DNA of 64,000 bases, taken from Craspedostauros australis (lineage: Eukaryota; Bacillariophyta; Bacillariophyceae; Mastogloiales; Achnanthaceae). Under the pieces are notes generated by a model. The model ran no database searches. It worked only from the letters and a program-made list of their open reading frames with translations, and had not been told where the DNA came from. Below, one piece after another: positions 19,722 to 48,096 of the stretch; the stretch's first letter is position 1; each line of letters opens with the position of its first letter. Where the stretch lies: NCBI GenBank assembly GCA_026770025.1, contig JAMXDE010000004.1, positions 3,335,501 through 3,399,500 on the forward strand, read 5' to 3'. Both the position numbers and the translations under genes were made by a program.

Positions 19722-21904
19722 TCAAAAATGCCTCTTTTGAGAGATGGGCTTGGTTGGTTTGCTTGATTTCGATGGTGCTCGCCTCCTCCGTTTCTTGGTT
19801 GTGGGTGGCAGTTTCTCATCTCTTCTTGCCTGGACGAGATCCATCTCGCGCTTCTTGCGGAAGCCATGCGCGGCCTTGTCCCGTGCTTCCGCGAAGGTGA
19901 CCTCGATCCAACAGCCTGTCTCCTTGCACTTCTTGAGGAAGCGGCCCTTTCGCTCCTGCATCTTGTGCACCAGCTTCTCAGCGACGTTCAGCTTGGCCCA
20001 CCTTGGCGCTTTGTCGTACTCGTCGAACATATCAGCAATGACTGCCTTCATGTACTGATTGCCGGGGTGCTCTTGAAATGGCCTTCCACGTCCCATCAGA
20101 ACGTCAACTTCAGTTGGACTGCAACCTGGACGAATGCTGTTGCTTTCAATGGGATCAGCCGCCGCGAGTGGCAGTGATGAAGAAAGCTGTTGTGATGATG
20201 GTGGCATTGACCTCTGTTTTGGTGGGAGTGGCAGAGTTGGCGACCTGCCATTTCGCACGACTGCAGCTGCTGGGGTGTCTGCGCATCGGTCTGCCAGTTG
20301 GAGATCCACATCGGCATTCTTGTCTTCCTCTTCTTCAGCGTCTTGGACGACTCGCATCGATGACACATGGCTGGCATCGTTGCGCTCAGGATGATCGTGA
20401 GCGCCAGAGGTGCCATTCCCGTTTCTCATCTGCGTGGTCATTGCGGTTCGGTAAACTTCCAGCGCTCTGCGATGCATGATCCAAGCGCTGGCCCCCGCTA
20501 TTTTGACCATCCCCCTGTCATCGAATGGCAGGACCTGAGGTGACACGCCGTGCGAAGAGAGGCTCTTGATGTTATCAGCCAGCGTACCGAAGAATGGCTT
20601 GAATCGGTGGCGAGTATGATGGGCCAGCGAGAGCTGAAAAATGTTTACCATGGCCCGCATGTCCTTCGTATCGTCTGATAGGAAGTACATCCTCTTCACG
20701 TTCACCGGCGTGATCGCGGTGGTCTGCTCGCAAATGTACATGTTCAGCCGCTGTTTCGGTGTTACATTCGGCATCATCTTGTCCAGGGCATGCACCATAA
20801 CTACTCCGTTCTTCTGTGCCTCGACGTCTTCCACAACCGTCATGGCTGCGTAAAACAGGGCCCGGGCATTCGCCAAGGTGTCGAACATGCTCGGGACGAA
20901 CTCTGTCGCTACGATTATGCGACTTCCATGCGCATCCTCGCAAGGAAGCGGTTGTACATTCCCAGCTTCCAGCAGAGCGACCGCTCCTGGGCACAGATCG
21001 GACAGCAGCACGTCTCTACCGAGCACATGCGGACCGAACAAGTGCAGCTTGGCATCGCACCAGGCGATCAATCGCATCGCGGCTTTGTACGAGTCGAAGG
21101 AGGTGCAGCGCAGGAACTTGAGGCGCAGGTCCTTGTCTTCGATGTAGGCTTGATTCGTCTGCTTGGCGATGTCGTATGCAGTCCTGTTGCTGGTCGTCAT
21201 GACCAGCTCCATCTCCATGTCGTCGAGCTTGGCGCTCACGAACGCGGGGATCTCCTCGCAGGGAACGGAGCTCCCGGTGATGTCCTCATATATGTGCTTG
21301 CGTTCTTCGGGTGACATCGCGTGCAGCTCTTGCGCGATGATATCGGGGACCTTAAATGTGTTCAAGATGTCGTCGTTGGTCAACGGTGTGGTTTGCTGCG
21401 CATCTGTTCCTATCACGGCGTTCGCAAATGCGGCCGCGCAAGCAGGATTGCAGTGGTCAGTATCCTCGTTCGGTTTCCCGATCTGAGCATGACGAGAGAG
21501 ACGACGATGGATTGTGAGCTATATCAACATGCGGTTTGGTTCACTGTTGGCGTTCCGGATGCAACTTCATTCGAACTATTATAGTAGGTATGGTATCTCC
21601 GCGGTCGTAGTCGTCATCATGGGCTACGGAGAATCATCGCCATTGCGCAAGTACTCACCTTGCCATCGTCGTCACGGAGAGTGCTGCCGCTGAAGTCACA
21701 GTTGCAGCCGTTGCCAGTGTCTGAGCCGAGGTCTGATCTGGCTTCAACAATCTCATTGTCAAGCGTGCGAATATTTTGCTCGCCATGACATGGAAAGCAG
21801 GATTCTAACAAAGAACAGCTCGCCGCGAGGAACTCATCGTCATCCGCGCAGAGTGTTGAATACTCATCCAGTTGCTGCCACTCGTCGGCGGAGAAGATAC
21901 TCAT
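19722..21904 (-). CDS. CRAL-TRIO-like/DUF6824 fusion protein A, two exons
   Basis: Exon 1 is 21904-21659 and exon 2 21482-19722; the 176-nt intron has donor GTGAGT and acceptor CTCAG and is phase 0, giving 668 aa. Exon 2 alone has no ATG, so the upstream exon is required; its ATG at 21904 has a good ACCATG context. After an acidic N-terminus comes a CRAL-TRIO_N-like helix (DLRLKFLRCTSFDSYKAAM, about residues 200-220). A CRAL-TRIO-type lipid-binding region to about 425 includes NVKRMYFLSDD and HRFKPFFGTLADNI. A disordered linker leads to DUF6824 at about 542-632 (DVLMGRGRPFQEHPGN, then FLKKCKETGCWIEV and AHGFRKKRE). The C-terminus is strongly basic. DUF6824 is thought to be nuclear or DNA-binding in diatoms, so a lipid-responsive nuclear factor is a tempting but untested reading. 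It is a paralogue of the gene at 45752-48096. Confidence 0.85.
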
Positions 21905-31394: not shown

Positions 31395-31875
31395 TCGGGG
31401 GAAGAACGGAATGAAGGTTGTGAACAATTTTGACAGGACACGCGCCTACTCCATACAAATACATACTGTGAGCCATTGACGGAAAGTCGCCATTCTAAAC
31501 AATAATATTATAGTCGACAGCGAATCCATCTCTTGGCGCTCCCAAGTACCAACACTTCACGATGAATCACCTCTCATCGACGAAGCTGCAAACATGAGAT
31601 TGGTTAAGAGTTTCAGCACAAGATTTCGTTACTATTGCTGATCCGGACGCCAGGTTCATCCTCATCTCCACTTGTGTGTGGTGCATCTGGGGAGAATGGC
31701 CCATCAGCGCCGATTGCGGAAGAGACATCACCATTACCGATGTTGTGGCGGTTCCTGCTGTTGCCATTGCTGCTTGGAAGTAGCAAAATGAAGCCTGGAT
31801 CGAGCAGAACCAGAGAAATGGGACGAAAAGATGGGCAAAAAGGACTGATTCCTGCTCTTTTGGTGTAAAAAGAAT
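31395..31875. other. Intergenic; includes conserved tail of the tRNA-Cys copy
   Basis: Bases about 31809-31875 form the downstream tail of the minus-strand permuted tRNA gene and match the tail of the other copy. A TATTATAG run lies at about 31505-31512. Nothing else is recognised. Confidence 0.5.
31867..31871 (-). terminator. Pol III terminator (T5) of permuted tRNA-Cys copy 2
   Basis: Five T residues on the minus strand, 4 nt after the end of the 5' half, as expected for RNA polymerase III termination. Confidence 0.7.
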
Positions 31876-31953
31876 CTGCAATCGAACGCTCTACCACTGA
31901 GCTATATTGACCCGTGGAGTCAACAACGTGAGTCGAACACGTGACCATTCGAA
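31876..31953 (-). tRNA. Circularly permuted tRNA-Cys(GCA), copy 2
   Basis: On the minus strand the 3' half comes first. It consists of T, the anticodon 3' strand TCGAA, variable TGGTC, T arm ACGTG/TTCGACT/CACGT, acceptor 3' strand TGTTGAC and discriminator T73. A 6-nt spacer CCACGG follows. The 5' half is then acceptor GTCAATA, TA, D arm GCTC/AGTGGTA/GAGC, G26, anticodon 5' strand TTCGA and loop TTGCAG. All four stems pair, with one G-T. Anticodon GCA and U73 are the tRNA-Cys identity elements. The spacer begins CCA, so a 3' CCA may be encoded. Relative to copy 1 the acceptor has A5 instead of G5, facing T68, so pairing is kept. No conventional fold is possible because nothing after the loop pairs with TTCGA. 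Confidence 0.85.
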
Positions 31954-32340
31954 TACTGCTGTGCTACCCACATAACGCAGAATACGGTCTAAATACTGTC
32001 ATGTATGGTGCACTAGGAAAAAGTTGACCTCTCTGCCCACGAAACAGTCACAGACAAACTTGAAGATGGTTTCGCGCAAAAGAGAGAAAGAGAAGATCAC
32101 GCCAACAAGACAACAAGACAACAACACACACCACTCAACCCCATACTCGCACACATCAACAACAGACATCGAATTGCCACTCATAGTACTATTCATCACA
32201 CAGTGTGTGGCACTCATACTAATACAAGATAGGGCAGATACGCGATCAATACATCTGCCATAGGGAGCTCAGACTTCACACATTTCTACGAGAGCCAACC
32301 CAAGACCAATCATCCAACGTCAATCGTCCATCCTCTCGAA
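31954..32340. other. Divergent intergenic region
   Basis: Lies between the tRNA copy (-) and the ankyrin gene (+). It probably holds the ankyrin promoter and an A/C-rich 5' UTR. No other feature is seen. Confidence 0.5.
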
Positions 32341-33486
32341 ATGCCGAATGTTACGAATGAACAACTCATTGCTGCTGCCAATGCAGGTGACTTGTCGGTG
32401 TTGAAGGAATGGAAGAAGCAGAACAAGACGCAGACTGAGAGAGTTGATGTCAACAAGGTTACAGACTGGGTTGGTCGCACTCCCCTTCGTCTGGCATGCC
32501 ACAACGGCCACCTGGAGTGTGTCAAGTACCTCATCGAATCATGTGAGGCGAACATCAACTACCAAAACAACCATGGTGACACTCCCCTTCATCTGGCATG
32601 CGACAACGGCCACCTGGAGTGTGTCAAGTACCTCATCGAATCATGTGAGGCGAACATCAACTGCCAAAACTACTATGGTGATGCCCCCCTTCAGACGGCA
32701 TGCCACCATGACCACCTGGATTGTGCGAAGTACCTCATCGAATCCTGTGGGGCGAATATCAACTGTGAAGATAACAATGGAAACACTCCCCTTCATCGGG
32801 CATGCATGGAAGGCTGCCTGGAGTGTGTGAAGTACCTCATCAAATCATGTGGGGCAAACATCAACTGCCAAAACAACGACGGTTGCACTCCCCTTCATCA
32901 CACATGCTGGAACGGCCGCCTGGAGTGTGTGAAGTACCTCATCGAATTATGTGGGGCGGACATCAACTGCAAAGACAACTCTGGTGACACTCCCCTTCAT
33001 CACACATGCTTGTGTGGCCAGCTGAGGAGTGTGGAGTACCTCATCGATTCATGTGAGGCGAAAGTGAACTGTCAAAACAACAATGGTTCCACTCCCCTTC
33101 ATTGTGCATGCAACAACAACACGCTGGAGTGTGTCGAGTACCTCATTGCATCAGCCAATGCTAATATCGACATCAAAAACAACGACAACAAAACGCCCCT
33201 CGATTTGGTCGATGCAACATTTAATATCAAGATGATAAACCGTCTCGATGATCTGAGTTATCGCAACTCACAACTGCGGCAGCAGTTGAAACAGAAGGAA
33301 CAAGAGAATGAACAACTGAAACAACAGTTGGGACAGCAGTTGAAGCTGAAGGAACAAGAGATTGAACATTTGCAACAACAGTCGAGACACCAGTTGAAGC
33401 GAAAGAGCCAAGAGAATGAACACAAACACAGCAGCCACAAGAGGACCAACGCCAGCATTGGAGAAGACCGACTCAAATCCTTCTAA
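32341..33486 (+). CDS. Ankyrin-repeat protein with coiled-coil tail
   Basis: A 381-aa frame from ATG 32341. About eight ankyrin repeats at residues 40-290 share a TPLHLAC-NGHLECVKYLI core; repeats 2-7 are very similar at DNA level, pointing to recent internal duplication. A Gln/Glu/Lys-rich coiled coil follows at about 300-365 (LRQQLKQKEQENEQLKQQL, repeated as QLKLKEQEIEHLQQQ). The frame stops at TAA 33484-33486, but the same frame immediately continues into a BTB domain (next feature) that has no ATG of its own before its first strand. The intact protein was therefore probably ankyrin, coiled coil, BTB, a known arrangement for Cullin-3 adaptors or scaffolds. Whether the stop is read through, polymorphic or disabling cannot be told here. 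No intron donor of the GTNNGT type lies near the stop. Confidence 0.85.
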   Translation: MPNVTNEQLIAAANAGDLSVLKEWKKQNKTQTERVDVNKVTDWVGRTPLRLACHNGHLECVKYLIESCEANINYQNNHGDTPLHLACDNGHLECVKYLIESCEANINCQNYYGDAPLQTACHHDHLDCAKYLIESCGANINCEDNNGNTPLHRACMEGCLECVKYLIKSCGANINCQNNDGCTPLHHTCWNGRLECVKYLIELCGADINCKDNSGDTPLHHTCLCGQLRSVEYLIDSCEAKVNCQNNNGSTPLHCACNNNTLECVEYLIASANANIDIKNNDNKTPLDLVDATFNIKMINRLDDLSYRNSQLRQQLKQKEQENEQLKQQLGQQLKLKEQEIEHLQQQSRHQLKRKSQENEHKHSSHKRTNASIGEDRLKSF

Positions 33487-36000: not shown

Positions 36001-36135
36001 GTGTGGTGGGTGGATGGGTGGATCGGGAATGCCTGTTGGGTTGGGGCAGAACAAATGAAGATTTGTTGTTGTGCAGCAGCACCAATTCAAGAGTTCATAA
36101 ATATGTTTTTCGCTCAGCACGTCAGCGAAGCAGTA

Positions 36136-36213
36136 TTCGAATGGTCACGTGTTCGACTCACGTTGTTGACTCTCTAGGTCAGTATAGCTCAGTGGTAGAG
36201 CGTTCGATTGCAG
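36136..36213 (+). tRNA. Circularly permuted tRNA-Cys(GCA), copy 1
   Basis: The order on the DNA is 3' half then 5' half. 3' half: T36136, anticodon 3' strand TCGAA 36137-36141, variable TGGTC, T stem ACGTG 36147-36151, loop TTCGACT, T stem CACGT 36159-36163, acceptor TGTTGAC 36164-36170, discriminator T36171. The spacer is CTCTAG 36172-36177. 5' half: acceptor GTCAGTA 36178-36184, TA, D stem GCTC, loop AGTGGTA, stem GAGC, G26, anticodon stem TTCGA 36203-36207, loop TTGCAG to 36213. The T and anticodon stems are perfect, and the acceptor pairs throughout with two G-T wobbles. U8, A14, G18-G19, U54-U55-C56 and A58 are all present. Anticodon GCA with U73 identifies tRNA-Cys. The B box lies upstream of the A box, as in other permuted tRNA genes. 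Mature length is 72 nt before CCA. Confidence 0.88.
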
Positions 36214-36551
36214 ACTCTTTTTACTCCAAAAGAGCAGGAATCAGCCCTTTTTGCTCATCTTTTCGTCCCATTTCTCTGTTTTTGCCCAATTCTGGTTTCC
36301 TCTTGATGCTGGCGCTTCCGCAGGCCCAGCTTCAGGCGAGGGACCTATCGCCACCACACTCTTTGAGCAACATAGAGTAAATCGGCTTGCCGCAAGGATT
36401 AAGTGGTCGTCGTTCGTTATGAACTGTGTCTACTCACGCATGAACACTGCTCTTCTCTTTCGTACTGTGCTGTGCTGTGCTGTACTTTAATTATTCTCCC
36501 AACACCAGCTTCTGTTTCCGCTCCCTGCAGAAACAATCATCGAACATCATG
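36214..36551. other. Intergenic; conserved tRNA tail then no gene
   Basis: Bases 36214 to about 36280 match the tail of tRNA copy 2 with few substitutions (AAAAGAGCAGGAATCAG and CATCTTTTCGTCCCATTTCT are shared). The rest holds a short TGTGCTGTGCTGTGCTGT run and the 3' flank of the peptidase gene. Confidence 0.5.
36218..36222 (+). terminator. Pol III terminator (T5) of permuted tRNA-Cys copy 1
   Basis: TTTTT starts 5 nt after the 5' half ends, consistent with a transcript that begins upstream of the 3' half and stops here. Confidence 0.7.
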
Positions 36552-45751: not shown

Positions 45752-48096
45752 ATGGGCAAACGCAAGGACAGAGACGCGGACCAACGCAGCGTGTTCAGCA
45801 CTGACAGCTCAGGTTGCAACACGACAGGCAGCGCAACGCTTCTGAGCCACGCCTCCAGTCAACAGCACAACGAGCATGGAGACGATGAGCTCATGGGAAT
45901 GGCCGAGCAAATCTCCGGTGTGGAGATGGAAGGTGATGGTGCAACCGCCGACGGGATGGGCATGGTGGCTATGGCGAGGATGATGAACAACTCGGATGAA
46001 TGTCACCATGATCGACATCGCGCATCGCCGTTCGGGAGCGATCACCAGGTGCAAGCGGATCCGGTGTTGTCGGTCAGCGCAGTCGCACCATCACTAACGG
46101 GGTCTCTCTCATCTCCTCCACAATCCATGCAGCAGCAGGACGATATTCATCCGACGGCACCATCATCGAGCACGCCTAGTGCATCTGTACCACAGCTTCC
46201 ACTTTCATCATCATCACCACCTATTCCATTTCCTCCAACGTCTCCAACATCTGCTCCTACGAGCACAGAGACAAAGCCATGCTTTGGGTCCTGGTTTTGC
46301 ACAGGTGACACCCGATCTAACGACCCCATCACCGAAAGCAGCAAACTGAGCCGGCAGCCTAACCGACAGCACCGCAACGCCAACGCGGCGGGTGACACGC
46401 CCTTCACATCAGCGCAAGGCGAAGCTATGTCGTCGCAAAGCGAATCACTTCTGGTGAAGGAGCTCAACGCGTTGTCCATACATGAGCGTCAGCAGGTTTA
46501 CGAAGACATTCATGGCGTTGCGGTGCCCATCGAGGAATCGCCGGACATGATCGCGAACGCGTTGGAGAAACTCGATCAACGTATCAAGCGCATCAAGCAT
46601 CGTTCCAGCTACGATCGCGCCTTCTTCCTGTCGCCGGCCCAGGTCATGGACGCCAAATTCCGCCTGGACTTTCTGCGGGCCGAGAACTTTGAAATCAACA
46701 AAGCGGCCAAGCGGCTGGTCAATTACTTCGAGTTGCGCCTGGAATTGTTCGGCGTGGAGTGTCTGGCACGTCCGGTCACCTACGACGATCTGCAGCCTGA
46801 AGATCATGCGTATTTGCGATCTGGGAGCACGCAGATCATTGGGGCGGATCAGGTGGGGCGTCCGGTCATACTGGCAGTCCCTAAGCAACGTCGCAGCCGC
46901 ACCGAATGGATCTCCATGTCACGCTCGTTGCTCTATTTGAGCGCCCTCGCGTTGCGAGAATTCTCGGAGTCGTCCCAGAAGGGGGTGATACTGCTTGTGT
47001 ACGACTCCAGCATGATCCAAGGCGTCTGCGCCAACGAGCTGTGCCAAGATCGGCGGTTCCGCGACGCATCCTATCTGCAAGGCTCGAACAAGCTGCTGAA
47101 TGCCGTGCCCGCCAAGCTGTCGGCCGTGCATTTTTGCTACGACAACCCGCAGCTCGCTGTGCCCATGCATGCGCTGCAATTGATGATCGGACACCAAGGA
47201 CGAGTGCGATTTCGTGCTCATTTTGGTAAGTGTCTATCATATCTTGTGGCGGGTTCTGTCCTCGGATGTGGTGTTGCGGCCTTCAACAGGGTGCATTTGA
47301 TTGCGCCATTTCTGAACCACTCTGTGATGTGTAGGTGTTCTGCACGCTGTCTGCCATGAAGGTGGCGCGGTGATCGACTTGTCATCCCCTCACTCATTCA
47401 ATCTCTCGCTCGCCACCCACGATCATGGCCGGTGCCAAATTCATGAACTCCACTTCACTTCACTCCGCCGCGCTCTCCACTCCTCCCCTCTCCTCGGCCG
47501 TATCAGGATCGCACCTGGAAAACTTATACAAGCTCATGACGTTCGGCATCCCCACTCAGAAATTGCCGATCCAACCGGATGGCAAGGTATCTACTCAGCA
47601 GTTCCACGCGTGGCTCGATGGCATCGCTGAGAAGGAACGTCAGCAACTGCAACAGCAACGCAAGCTTGAGGCTATTCACAATCGTATCGCCTTCCCCGAA
47701 CGCGACGACATCTTGTGCGGGCGCGGACGACCCTTCCAGGATTTTCCCGGAAACATCTCGCTGGGCGTGTTTGTGGATTCGTACTACGATCAGTACCAGC
47801 TCAATAAGAAGTCGGAAAAGACGCAGCTCTCCATGAAGCTCGTGAAGTTGCTGCGGAAGCGAGGTGTGCGGGTGCTGAAGCGCCGTGCAGATGAAGGCGC
47901 AGTGGACGAGCACGGTCTGCGAGGCGTATGGGAGATGGTCGACAACGAGCGCGCACGCGAGAAGGTGAGCCATACCTTCCGCAACACCACCTTGCATCGC
48001 AATGCCCTGAACAAACAGCAGCAAAAGCAACAGCAGCAGCAGAAGAAGGAGAAGAAGAAGAAAGATCAACAGCGACAGCCGAAAACTCATCAATAA
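45752..48096 (+). CDS. CRAL-TRIO-like/DUF6824 fusion protein B, two exons
   Basis: Exon 1 is 45752-47225 and exon 2 47507-48096; the 281-nt intron has donor GTAAGT and acceptor ATCAG, giving 687 aa. The start is in an ideal context (GCCACCATGGG). A disordered Ser/Pro-rich N-terminus (1-230) precedes a CRAL-TRIO_N-like helix (KFRLDFLRAENFEINKAAK, about 302-320) and a CRAL-TRIO-type core including RPVILAVPKQRRS, GVILLVYDSSMIQGV and AVHFCYDNPQLAVPM. The splice restores RFRAHFGSHLENLYKLMTFG, aligning with RFKPFFGTLADNIKSLSSHG of paralogue A. DUF6824 follows at about 558-655 (DDILCGRGRPFQDFPGN, then VRVLKRRADEG and VSHTFRNTT), ending in Gln/Lys runs. Lipid-binding plus a probable nuclear domain suggests a sensor or regulator; this is inference. 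The two paralogues have introns at different places. Confidence 0.86.

Follow-up and report, generated by a model that had tools for sequence, protein, structure and literature searches.

A putative circularly permuted nuclear tRNA-Cys(GCA) gene, present at three loci, in a diatom genome

We found that a short locus in the nuclear genome of this diatom is very probably a working circularly permuted gene for tRNA-Cys(GCA), in which the 3' half of the tRNA lies upstream of the 5' half. Judged from its sequence, this putative gene is of type II, i.e., interrupted between nucleotides 37 and 38, and it is one of three such loci that together probably constitute the sole nuclear source of the tRNA. 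The window, by which we mean the whole 64,000-nt stretch of DNA analyzed here, corresponds to C2:3335501-3399500 of a genome of 74.8 Mb in 90 contigs. Two of the three loci (copies a and b) lie in the window, and the third (copy c) on another contig.

In copy a (window positions 36136-36213, plus strand) the 3' half, which represents tRNA-Cys nucleotides 38-73 (36136..36171), comes first and comprises half of the anticodon stem, the variable loop, the T arm with the B box, the 3' acceptor strand and U73. It is followed by the spacer CTCTAG (36172..36177), which would link U73 to G1 in the precursor, and then by the 5' half (nucleotides 1-37; 36178..36213), which carries the 5' acceptor strand, the D arm with the A box and half of the anticodon stem. 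The anticodon GCA occupies positions 36210-36212 and G37 position 36213. On the upstream side, the 3' half is directly preceded by a leader, AGCAGTA (36129..36135), whose GCAG (36130-36133) may pair with nucleotides 32-35 of the tRNA, and further out by a TATA-like word, ATAAAT (36097..36102), which begins 39 nt ahead of the 3' half and belongs to a word list drawn up post hoc. Downstream, the 5' half is followed by TCTTTTT (36216..36222), a likely RNA polymerase III terminator.

Once the halves are rotated into the conventional order, the sequence assumes a tRNA-Cys cloverleaf bearing the features usual in eukaryotes (U8, G18G19, U33 and TTC at 54-56). In each of the three copies all 21 stem pairs are formed (four in the D, five in the anticodon, five in the T and seven in the acceptor stem), two of the seven acceptor pairs of copy a being wobble pairs. 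After this rotation, ARAGORN reads all three copies as tRNA-Cys(gca), with or without flanks or CCA, compared with none of the three in their unswapped form; the window as it stands yields no match by ARAGORN and none by Rfam at the gathering threshold. An earlier note on this DNA had described the same layout of 3' half, 6-nt spacer and 5' half, and its coordinates prove correct to the base. It had further stated that every stem pairs around a GCA anticodon with U73 as discriminator, as borne out by the pair count and by the ARAGORN call on the rotated copy, and that a T run follows the 5' half, which is the TCTTTTT described above.

Independent recognition of the permuted structure came from a covariance model, R2, which was built from 11 different conventional nuclear tRNAs of the same genome, none of them tRNA-Cys, artificially permuted at 37/38 and joined by an N spacer. 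Up to an E-value of 10, R2 gave two matches in the window, 36136-36213 (copy a; 67.4 bits, E 1.3e-18) and 31876-31953 on the minus strand (copy b; 67.1 bits, E 1.6e-18), and copy c scored 67.5 bits. Another model, R1, in whose construction the Cys copies were included, assigned 85.2 bits to each of the window copies. Pair counts made on artificially permuted real tRNAs are given no weight, because covariation is built into such sequences. Outside the window, R2 was run over 61 of 91 loci of the genome (124,749 bases), the others being organelle, overlapping, in-window and looser-pattern loci (see below) and half-matches of the conventional-order query, while three looser-pattern loci and two further loci were scanned separately. 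Among the 117 matches up to E 10 obtained in the 61 loci, copy c was the best. The runner-up (44.8 bits) was a mitochondrial tRNA-Met/tRNA-Val tandem, an expected false positive, since the T arm of one gene there precedes the D arm of the next, and the matches below it were single conventional genes recognized by one half (31.7 bits and less). That the locus is a chance resemblance or an assembly artefact is an idea to which we give practically no credence: the one point in its favor is the unremarkable folding energy, and against it stand the E-values of about 1e-18 reached in the window by a Cys-blind model, the occurrence of three loci that differ in spacer and flanks and are distributed over two contigs, and a reversed-pattern control that returned nothing. 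The minimum free energy was indeed no better than that of shuffled sequences for the rotated tRNA (z = -0.32) or the precursor (z = +0.26), and the structure finds no support in free energy alone.

Using window positions 36100-36235 as a query against the whole genome, we retrieved three places, namely copy a itself, copy b (C2:3367354-3367460, minus strand, 93%) and copy c (C32:63119-63225, minus strand, 89%), the last with a conventional tRNA-Lys(CTT) gene 0.6 kb away. Copy b, the second copy within the window, was absent from the earlier note. On the minus strand it consists of the 3' half (nucleotides 38-73; 31918..31953), the spacer CCACGG (31912..31917) and the 5' half (nucleotides 1-37; 31876..31911), preceded by a leader identical to that of copy a (AGCAGTA; 31954..31960) and by the TATA-like word TATTTA (31990..31995; start 42 nt upstream of the 3' half), and followed by TCTTTTT, again a likely polymerase III terminator (31867..31873). 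At all three loci the 3' half is found upstream of the 5' half, on one strand, with 6 nt between nucleotides 73 and 1.

Comparison of the three loci revealed a sharp difference between the mature tRNA and its surroundings. In the mature sequence, 71 of 72 positions are identical, none of the 36 columns of the 3' half and one of the 36 of the 5' half being variable, and the sole change, G to A at position 5 opposite U68, converts a G-U into an A-U pair and thus keeps the pairing. The spacer, in turn, varies in all six columns (CTCTAG, CCACGG, GCCCAA); of the flanking columns, 56 of 72 vary on the upstream side (with gaps counted) and 40 of 68 on the downstream side. Outside the tRNA, the terminator TCTTTTT (0/7 columns variable) and the AGCA of the leader at -7 to -4 (0/4) are invariant as well. 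Fisher tests of the mature sequence against the spacer (p 2.7e-8) and against the upstream flank (9e-24) serve as guides only, as columns of related loci are non-independent. Sequence that is kept where a tRNA needs it and free to change elsewhere argues for function. Together with the recurrence at three loci and the matches to the Cys-blind model, this pattern upholds the earlier note's reading of the locus as a permuted tRNA-Cys gene.

Copies a and b are located in the arms of an inverted repeat. The arm with copy b (31779..31965, 187 nt) is 88% complementary to the arm with copy a (36124..36310, 187 nt), and the two are 4,158 nt apart. The repeat probably marks the duplication that produced both copies, and since this duplication is fairly recent by appearance, the two should not be regarded as independent. 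Such a setting could be expected of genomic debris, e.g., an unexpressed pseudogene left by a head-to-tail duplication of a tRNA-Cys gene that subsequently lost its outer halves. We consider this origin very unlikely, because the mature sequence has been retained at three loci while the spacer and upstream flanks diverged, the only substitution preserves pairing, the terminator is invariant, and the pattern and BLAST-type searches found no other nuclear tRNA-Cys in a cell that needs one.

The interval between the inverted copies a and b contains an ankyrin-repeat gene (window 32341-33486, plus strand) with a 102-nt (34-residue) internal repeat in six overlapping copies. Elsewhere in the window, DUF6824, a domain of unknown function that is common in diatoms, occurs in two proteins (19722-21416, minus strand; 47425-48096, plus strand). 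Like copies a and b, several nuclear tRNA genes of this genome form inverted pairs of like genes separated by a few hundred bases to several kilobases (loci L075/L076, L084/L085, L056/L057, L013 and L060/L061), and in the tRNA-Met pair L075/L076 the printed flanks are also common to both genes.

As for a conventional nuclear tRNA-Cys(GCA) gene, whose existence the earlier note had raised as a question and had made one half of what would refute its reading, none was detected, within the sensitivity of the methods, with either of two patterns that allow mismatches or with a BLAST-type search. A strict pattern composed of the A box, D arm and GCA anticodon (up to three mismatches) found only the three permuted loci in the whole genome, and its reversed control found nothing. 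A looser pattern, likewise with up to three mismatches, occurred at nine places in the genome and at three in the control. Here the permuted loci matched with zero, zero and one mismatches, and each of the six others with three; the latter were two copies of a mitochondrial tRNA-Asn, the conventional tRNA-Cys(gca) that the plastid possesses as its own, and three nuclear places, near which ARAGORN recognized no tRNA and the permuted model gave nothing up to E 1. Finally, a 72-nt query with the tRNA in conventional order produced six matches in the BLAST-type search, all of which were single halves of the three loci; one of them continued past position 36 for two bases of its own trailer, and the halves were joined in none. 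A gene set in which tRNA-Cys is encoded in permuted form only would explain why finders that read the ordinary order, such as ARAGORN, report no nuclear tRNA-Cys.

Regarding other tRNAs, ARAGORN recognized 55 nuclear genes at 53 loci, representing 16 isotype-anticodon pairs, all conventional and none of them Cys. This inventory is incomplete and the underlying genome-wide tRNA family search a lower bound, as 63 of 1,610 first-look candidates were scored, the 63 including the plastid contig C90 and the mitochondrial contigs C83 and C89. The last two carry the same organellar tRNA matches in pairs, with mitochondrial proteins read on C83 only, and possibly represent one mitochondrial genome assembled twice. 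The count of 55 cannot exclude further permuted genes, because ARAGORN reads the conventional order and most of the loci were found with a conventional model. Two samplings were used in which the order of the halves plays no part. A 5' half of the initiator-Met type (up to three mismatches) was present at three places, each a conventional gene. An exact A-box pattern, which by its form excludes the Cys A box, was present at 34 places, 27 of them nuclear; ten of these were in the family-search list and the other 17 were, without exception, conventional or intron-containing genes. The isotypes outside these samples are Leu, Pro, His, Gln, Glu, Asp, Val, other Ser and others. One exact pattern of this tRNA-Cys was found nowhere in a viral contig collection.

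The signals expected for transcription are in place at the permuted loci. The A and B boxes are both intact, in reversed order. At the three loci the 3' half is preceded by TATA-like words that start 39, 42 and 45 nt away from it and come from a word list chosen after the loci had been viewed; with the same post hoc list, such a word is present at -60 to -18 in 22 of 55 conventional nuclear genes versus 3.5% of random window stretches. In the 55 conventional genes the A+T content peaks 35-45 nt upstream, and the TATA-like words of the permuted loci lie near that zone. At each of the three loci the T run is found behind the 5' half only, with none in the spacer, and TTTT is found within 40 nt of 52 of 55 conventional nuclear tRNA genes. 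The arrangement of these signals also bears on whether the locus might encode a split tRNA, whose halves would be transcribed separately and joined in trans, being neighbors merely by chance. Each half is complete, and the junction 37/38 is a site used by archaeal split tRNAs. Yet a spacer of 6 nt at all three loci leaves no room for a terminator and a promoter, the halves stay together in the same order three times, and a T run follows just one of them, which leaves the split arrangement an exceedingly slim chance.

We placed the junction by the usual intron site and not by RNA ends; around it, both trailer positions +1 and +2 and two of the three leader positions -3 to -1 vary among the loci, and positions 27-37 and 38-43 are invariant. 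Where a tRNA has an ordinary intron at 37/38, nucleotides 32-35 of the anticodon loop can pair with nucleotides -3 to -6 of the intron and so form the central helix of a bulge-helix-bulge. In the permuted precursor the leader would stand in for the 3' end of the intron. The leader GCAG of copies a and b can form four of four pairs with UUGC, and the GCAC of copy c three of four. The corresponding helix of the genome's own introns has three pairs in tRNA-Met and also three in both tRNA-Tyr introns that were scored. As background, four pairs are reached by 3.5% of the 6-mers in the window and three or four by 22%, and because of the latter figure the pairing by itself is a weak argument; a better one is that AGCA does not vary in leaders that have diverged elsewhere. 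When the cloverleaf is forced, the junction helix contributes 3.1, 3.1 and 1.5 kcal/mol in the three copies. The forced folds have energies of -17.6, -20.6 and -19.0 kcal/mol versus -28.3, -31.5 and -26.9 kcal/mol for the unconstrained minimum free energy folds of the three precursors, in which the junction helix is absent and the leader is paired differently. We therefore regard a bulge-helix-bulge of the relaxed form at the junction as probable rather than proven.

Ordinary tRNA splicing should operate in this genome, as the anticodon loop is interrupted at 37/38 by an intron of 16 nt in genes for elongator tRNA-Met (four of four seen) and of 19-20 nt in those for tRNA-Tyr (three of three seen; loci L075, L076, L084, L085, L087, L090 and L091 for both tRNAs). 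The tRNA-splicing endonuclease domain PF01974 was detected at C12:988390 with 43.7 bits, over the cut-off, and at a second locus, C14:1262852, with 25.2 bits, below the curated cut-off. A gene for Tpt1 (PF01885) is also present (E 1.8e-56); this enzyme takes off the 2'-phosphate left by the ligase pathway of the plant and fungus type. An RtcB-type RNA ligase had no match in the genome, compared with matches in 9 of 14 control genomes. Tpt1 present in a genome with no RtcB match fits the fungal and plant ligation pathway. For the ligase family PF09511 there was no match in the genome, and as no control matched either, this search is uninformative.

Taken together, the loci offer sequence signals that could serve each known step of maturation, with some reserve as to the junction motif. 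RNA polymerase III would start at the upstream AT-rich element, copy the leader, the 3' half, the spacer and the 5' half, and stop at the T run. The precursor would fold into a cloverleaf whose acceptor end is closed by the spacer and in whose anticodon loop leader and trailer face each other; the tRNA-splicing endonuclease would cleave at this point in the way it cleaves conventional 37/38 introns, and a ligase would close the RNA into a circle by linking G37 with U38. The 6-nt spacer would then be excised by RNase P and RNase Z, after which CCA would be added. Transcription, circularization, maturation and charging of the permuted tRNA-Cys are thus steps that we infer from the sequence. They correspond to the algal pathway as outlined in a 2014 review, in which splicing-type cuts at leader and trailer are followed by ligation to a circle with the spacer still in it; RNase P and tRNase Z later cut the spacer out, and CCA is added (PMC3978253). 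As permuted precursors of other algae pass through a circle according to the same source (PMC3978253), such a circle could conceivably be kept, and the product could be a stable circular RNA or tRNA halves with a regulatory role instead of a decoding tRNA. Features of tRNA identity (GCA, U73 and the cloverleaf) are, however, complete and conserved, and no other nuclear gene for tRNA-Cys was found, so that we see only a very slim chance for a regulatory product. If the permuted genes, read as genes for a decoding tRNA, are the sole nuclear source of tRNA-Cys, as it seems, circularization would be obligatory for translation.

The assignment of the genome to a diatom is supported by the rbcL sequence carried by the 133-kb plastid-like contig C90. 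The five best solved relatives of the encoded protein are 7yk5, 5mz2, 5n9z, 5oya and 6ftl (1049-1072 bits), the next one scoring 926. Of these, 5mz2, 5n9z, 5oya and 6ftl belong to the diatoms Thalassiosira antarctica, T. hyalina, Chaetoceros socialis and Skeletonema marinoi (PMC9833100), and 7yk5 was deposited with a paper on a diatom pyrenoid (PMC10288592).

Permuted tRNA genes are known from other lineages, and the review of 2014 counts 34 of them in six algae and one archaeon (PMC3978253). The cases named in the earlier note, i.e., Cyanidioschyzon, prasinophytes and the Bigelowiella nucleomorph, are all covered there. Among the closest counterparts are the prasinophytes Ostreococcus lucimarinus, O. 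tauri and Micromonas pusilla, for which the table lists a tRNA-Cys(GCA) interrupted at 37/38 with spacers of 26, 38 and 12 nt, respectively (Maruyama et al., 2010, in PMC3978253 Table 1). As compared via this table and not by sequence, they agree with the genes described here in amino acid, anticodon, type II junction at 37/38 and lack of an extra intron, and differ from them in belonging to green algae, in their longer spacers (6 nt here) and in having one gene tabulated for each species versus three here. With Cys permuted at the same junction in both groups, the choice between convergence and gene transfer is directly testable in other diatom genomes. One could go further and suppose that the diatom and prasinophyte 37/38 tRNA-Cys are one gene by descent, passed between the lineages by a route of which the green-derived genes proposed for diatoms are an example, and that diatoms as a group depend on a circle for every cytosolic cysteine codon; we regard this as a rather unlikely extension.

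In the red alga Cyanidioschyzon merolae the 3' half is likewise first and a T run stands behind the 5' half; a bulge-helix-bulge is described there for the junction (Soma et al., 2007, in PMC3978253). According to the review, six of its 11 permuted genes have the junction at 37/38, and both most of the permuted and the non-permuted tRNA genes are preceded, at no more than 50 bp, by a TATA-like sequence and end in a T run (PMC3978253); in contrast to the diatom loci, several junction sites are used there, spacers are 7-74 nt long and none of the 11 genes is listed for tRNA-Cys (PMC3978253). The tRNA-Ser gene of the Bigelowiella natans nucleomorph is tabulated with a junction at 37/38 and a spacer of 5 nt (PMC3978253 Table 1), and a permuted tRNA was later recorded for the Amorphochlora nucleomorph as well (PMC4494063). 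Unlike the present genes, which reside in the main nucleus and encode tRNA-Cys, those of the chlorarachniophytes are carried, as described in these sources, by a relict green-algal nucleus and encode tRNA-Ser (PMC3978253, PMC4494063). Auxenochlorella UTEX 250-A, a green alga and therefore distinct from the organism studied here, resembles it in possessing permuted nuclear tRNA genes, which were noticed through an incomplete tRNAscan-SE set (PMC12636532). Thermofilum pendens shares the swapped halves and short spacers (1 and 7 nt), and differs as an archaeon with the junction at 59/60 and an additional 37/38 intron (PMC3978253 Table 1). In the open literature searched we encountered no permuted tRNA from a diatom or another stramenopile, in keeping with the remark in the earlier note that no diatom case was known to its author, and an earlier report in the subscription literature is possible. 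The papers searched place such genes in a small number of red and green algae, in nucleomorphs of green origin and in a single archaeon. Belonging to one of the major groups of photosynthetic algae, the loci described here appear to be a known kind of gene in a new major lineage, which adds a stramenopile nucleus to this range.
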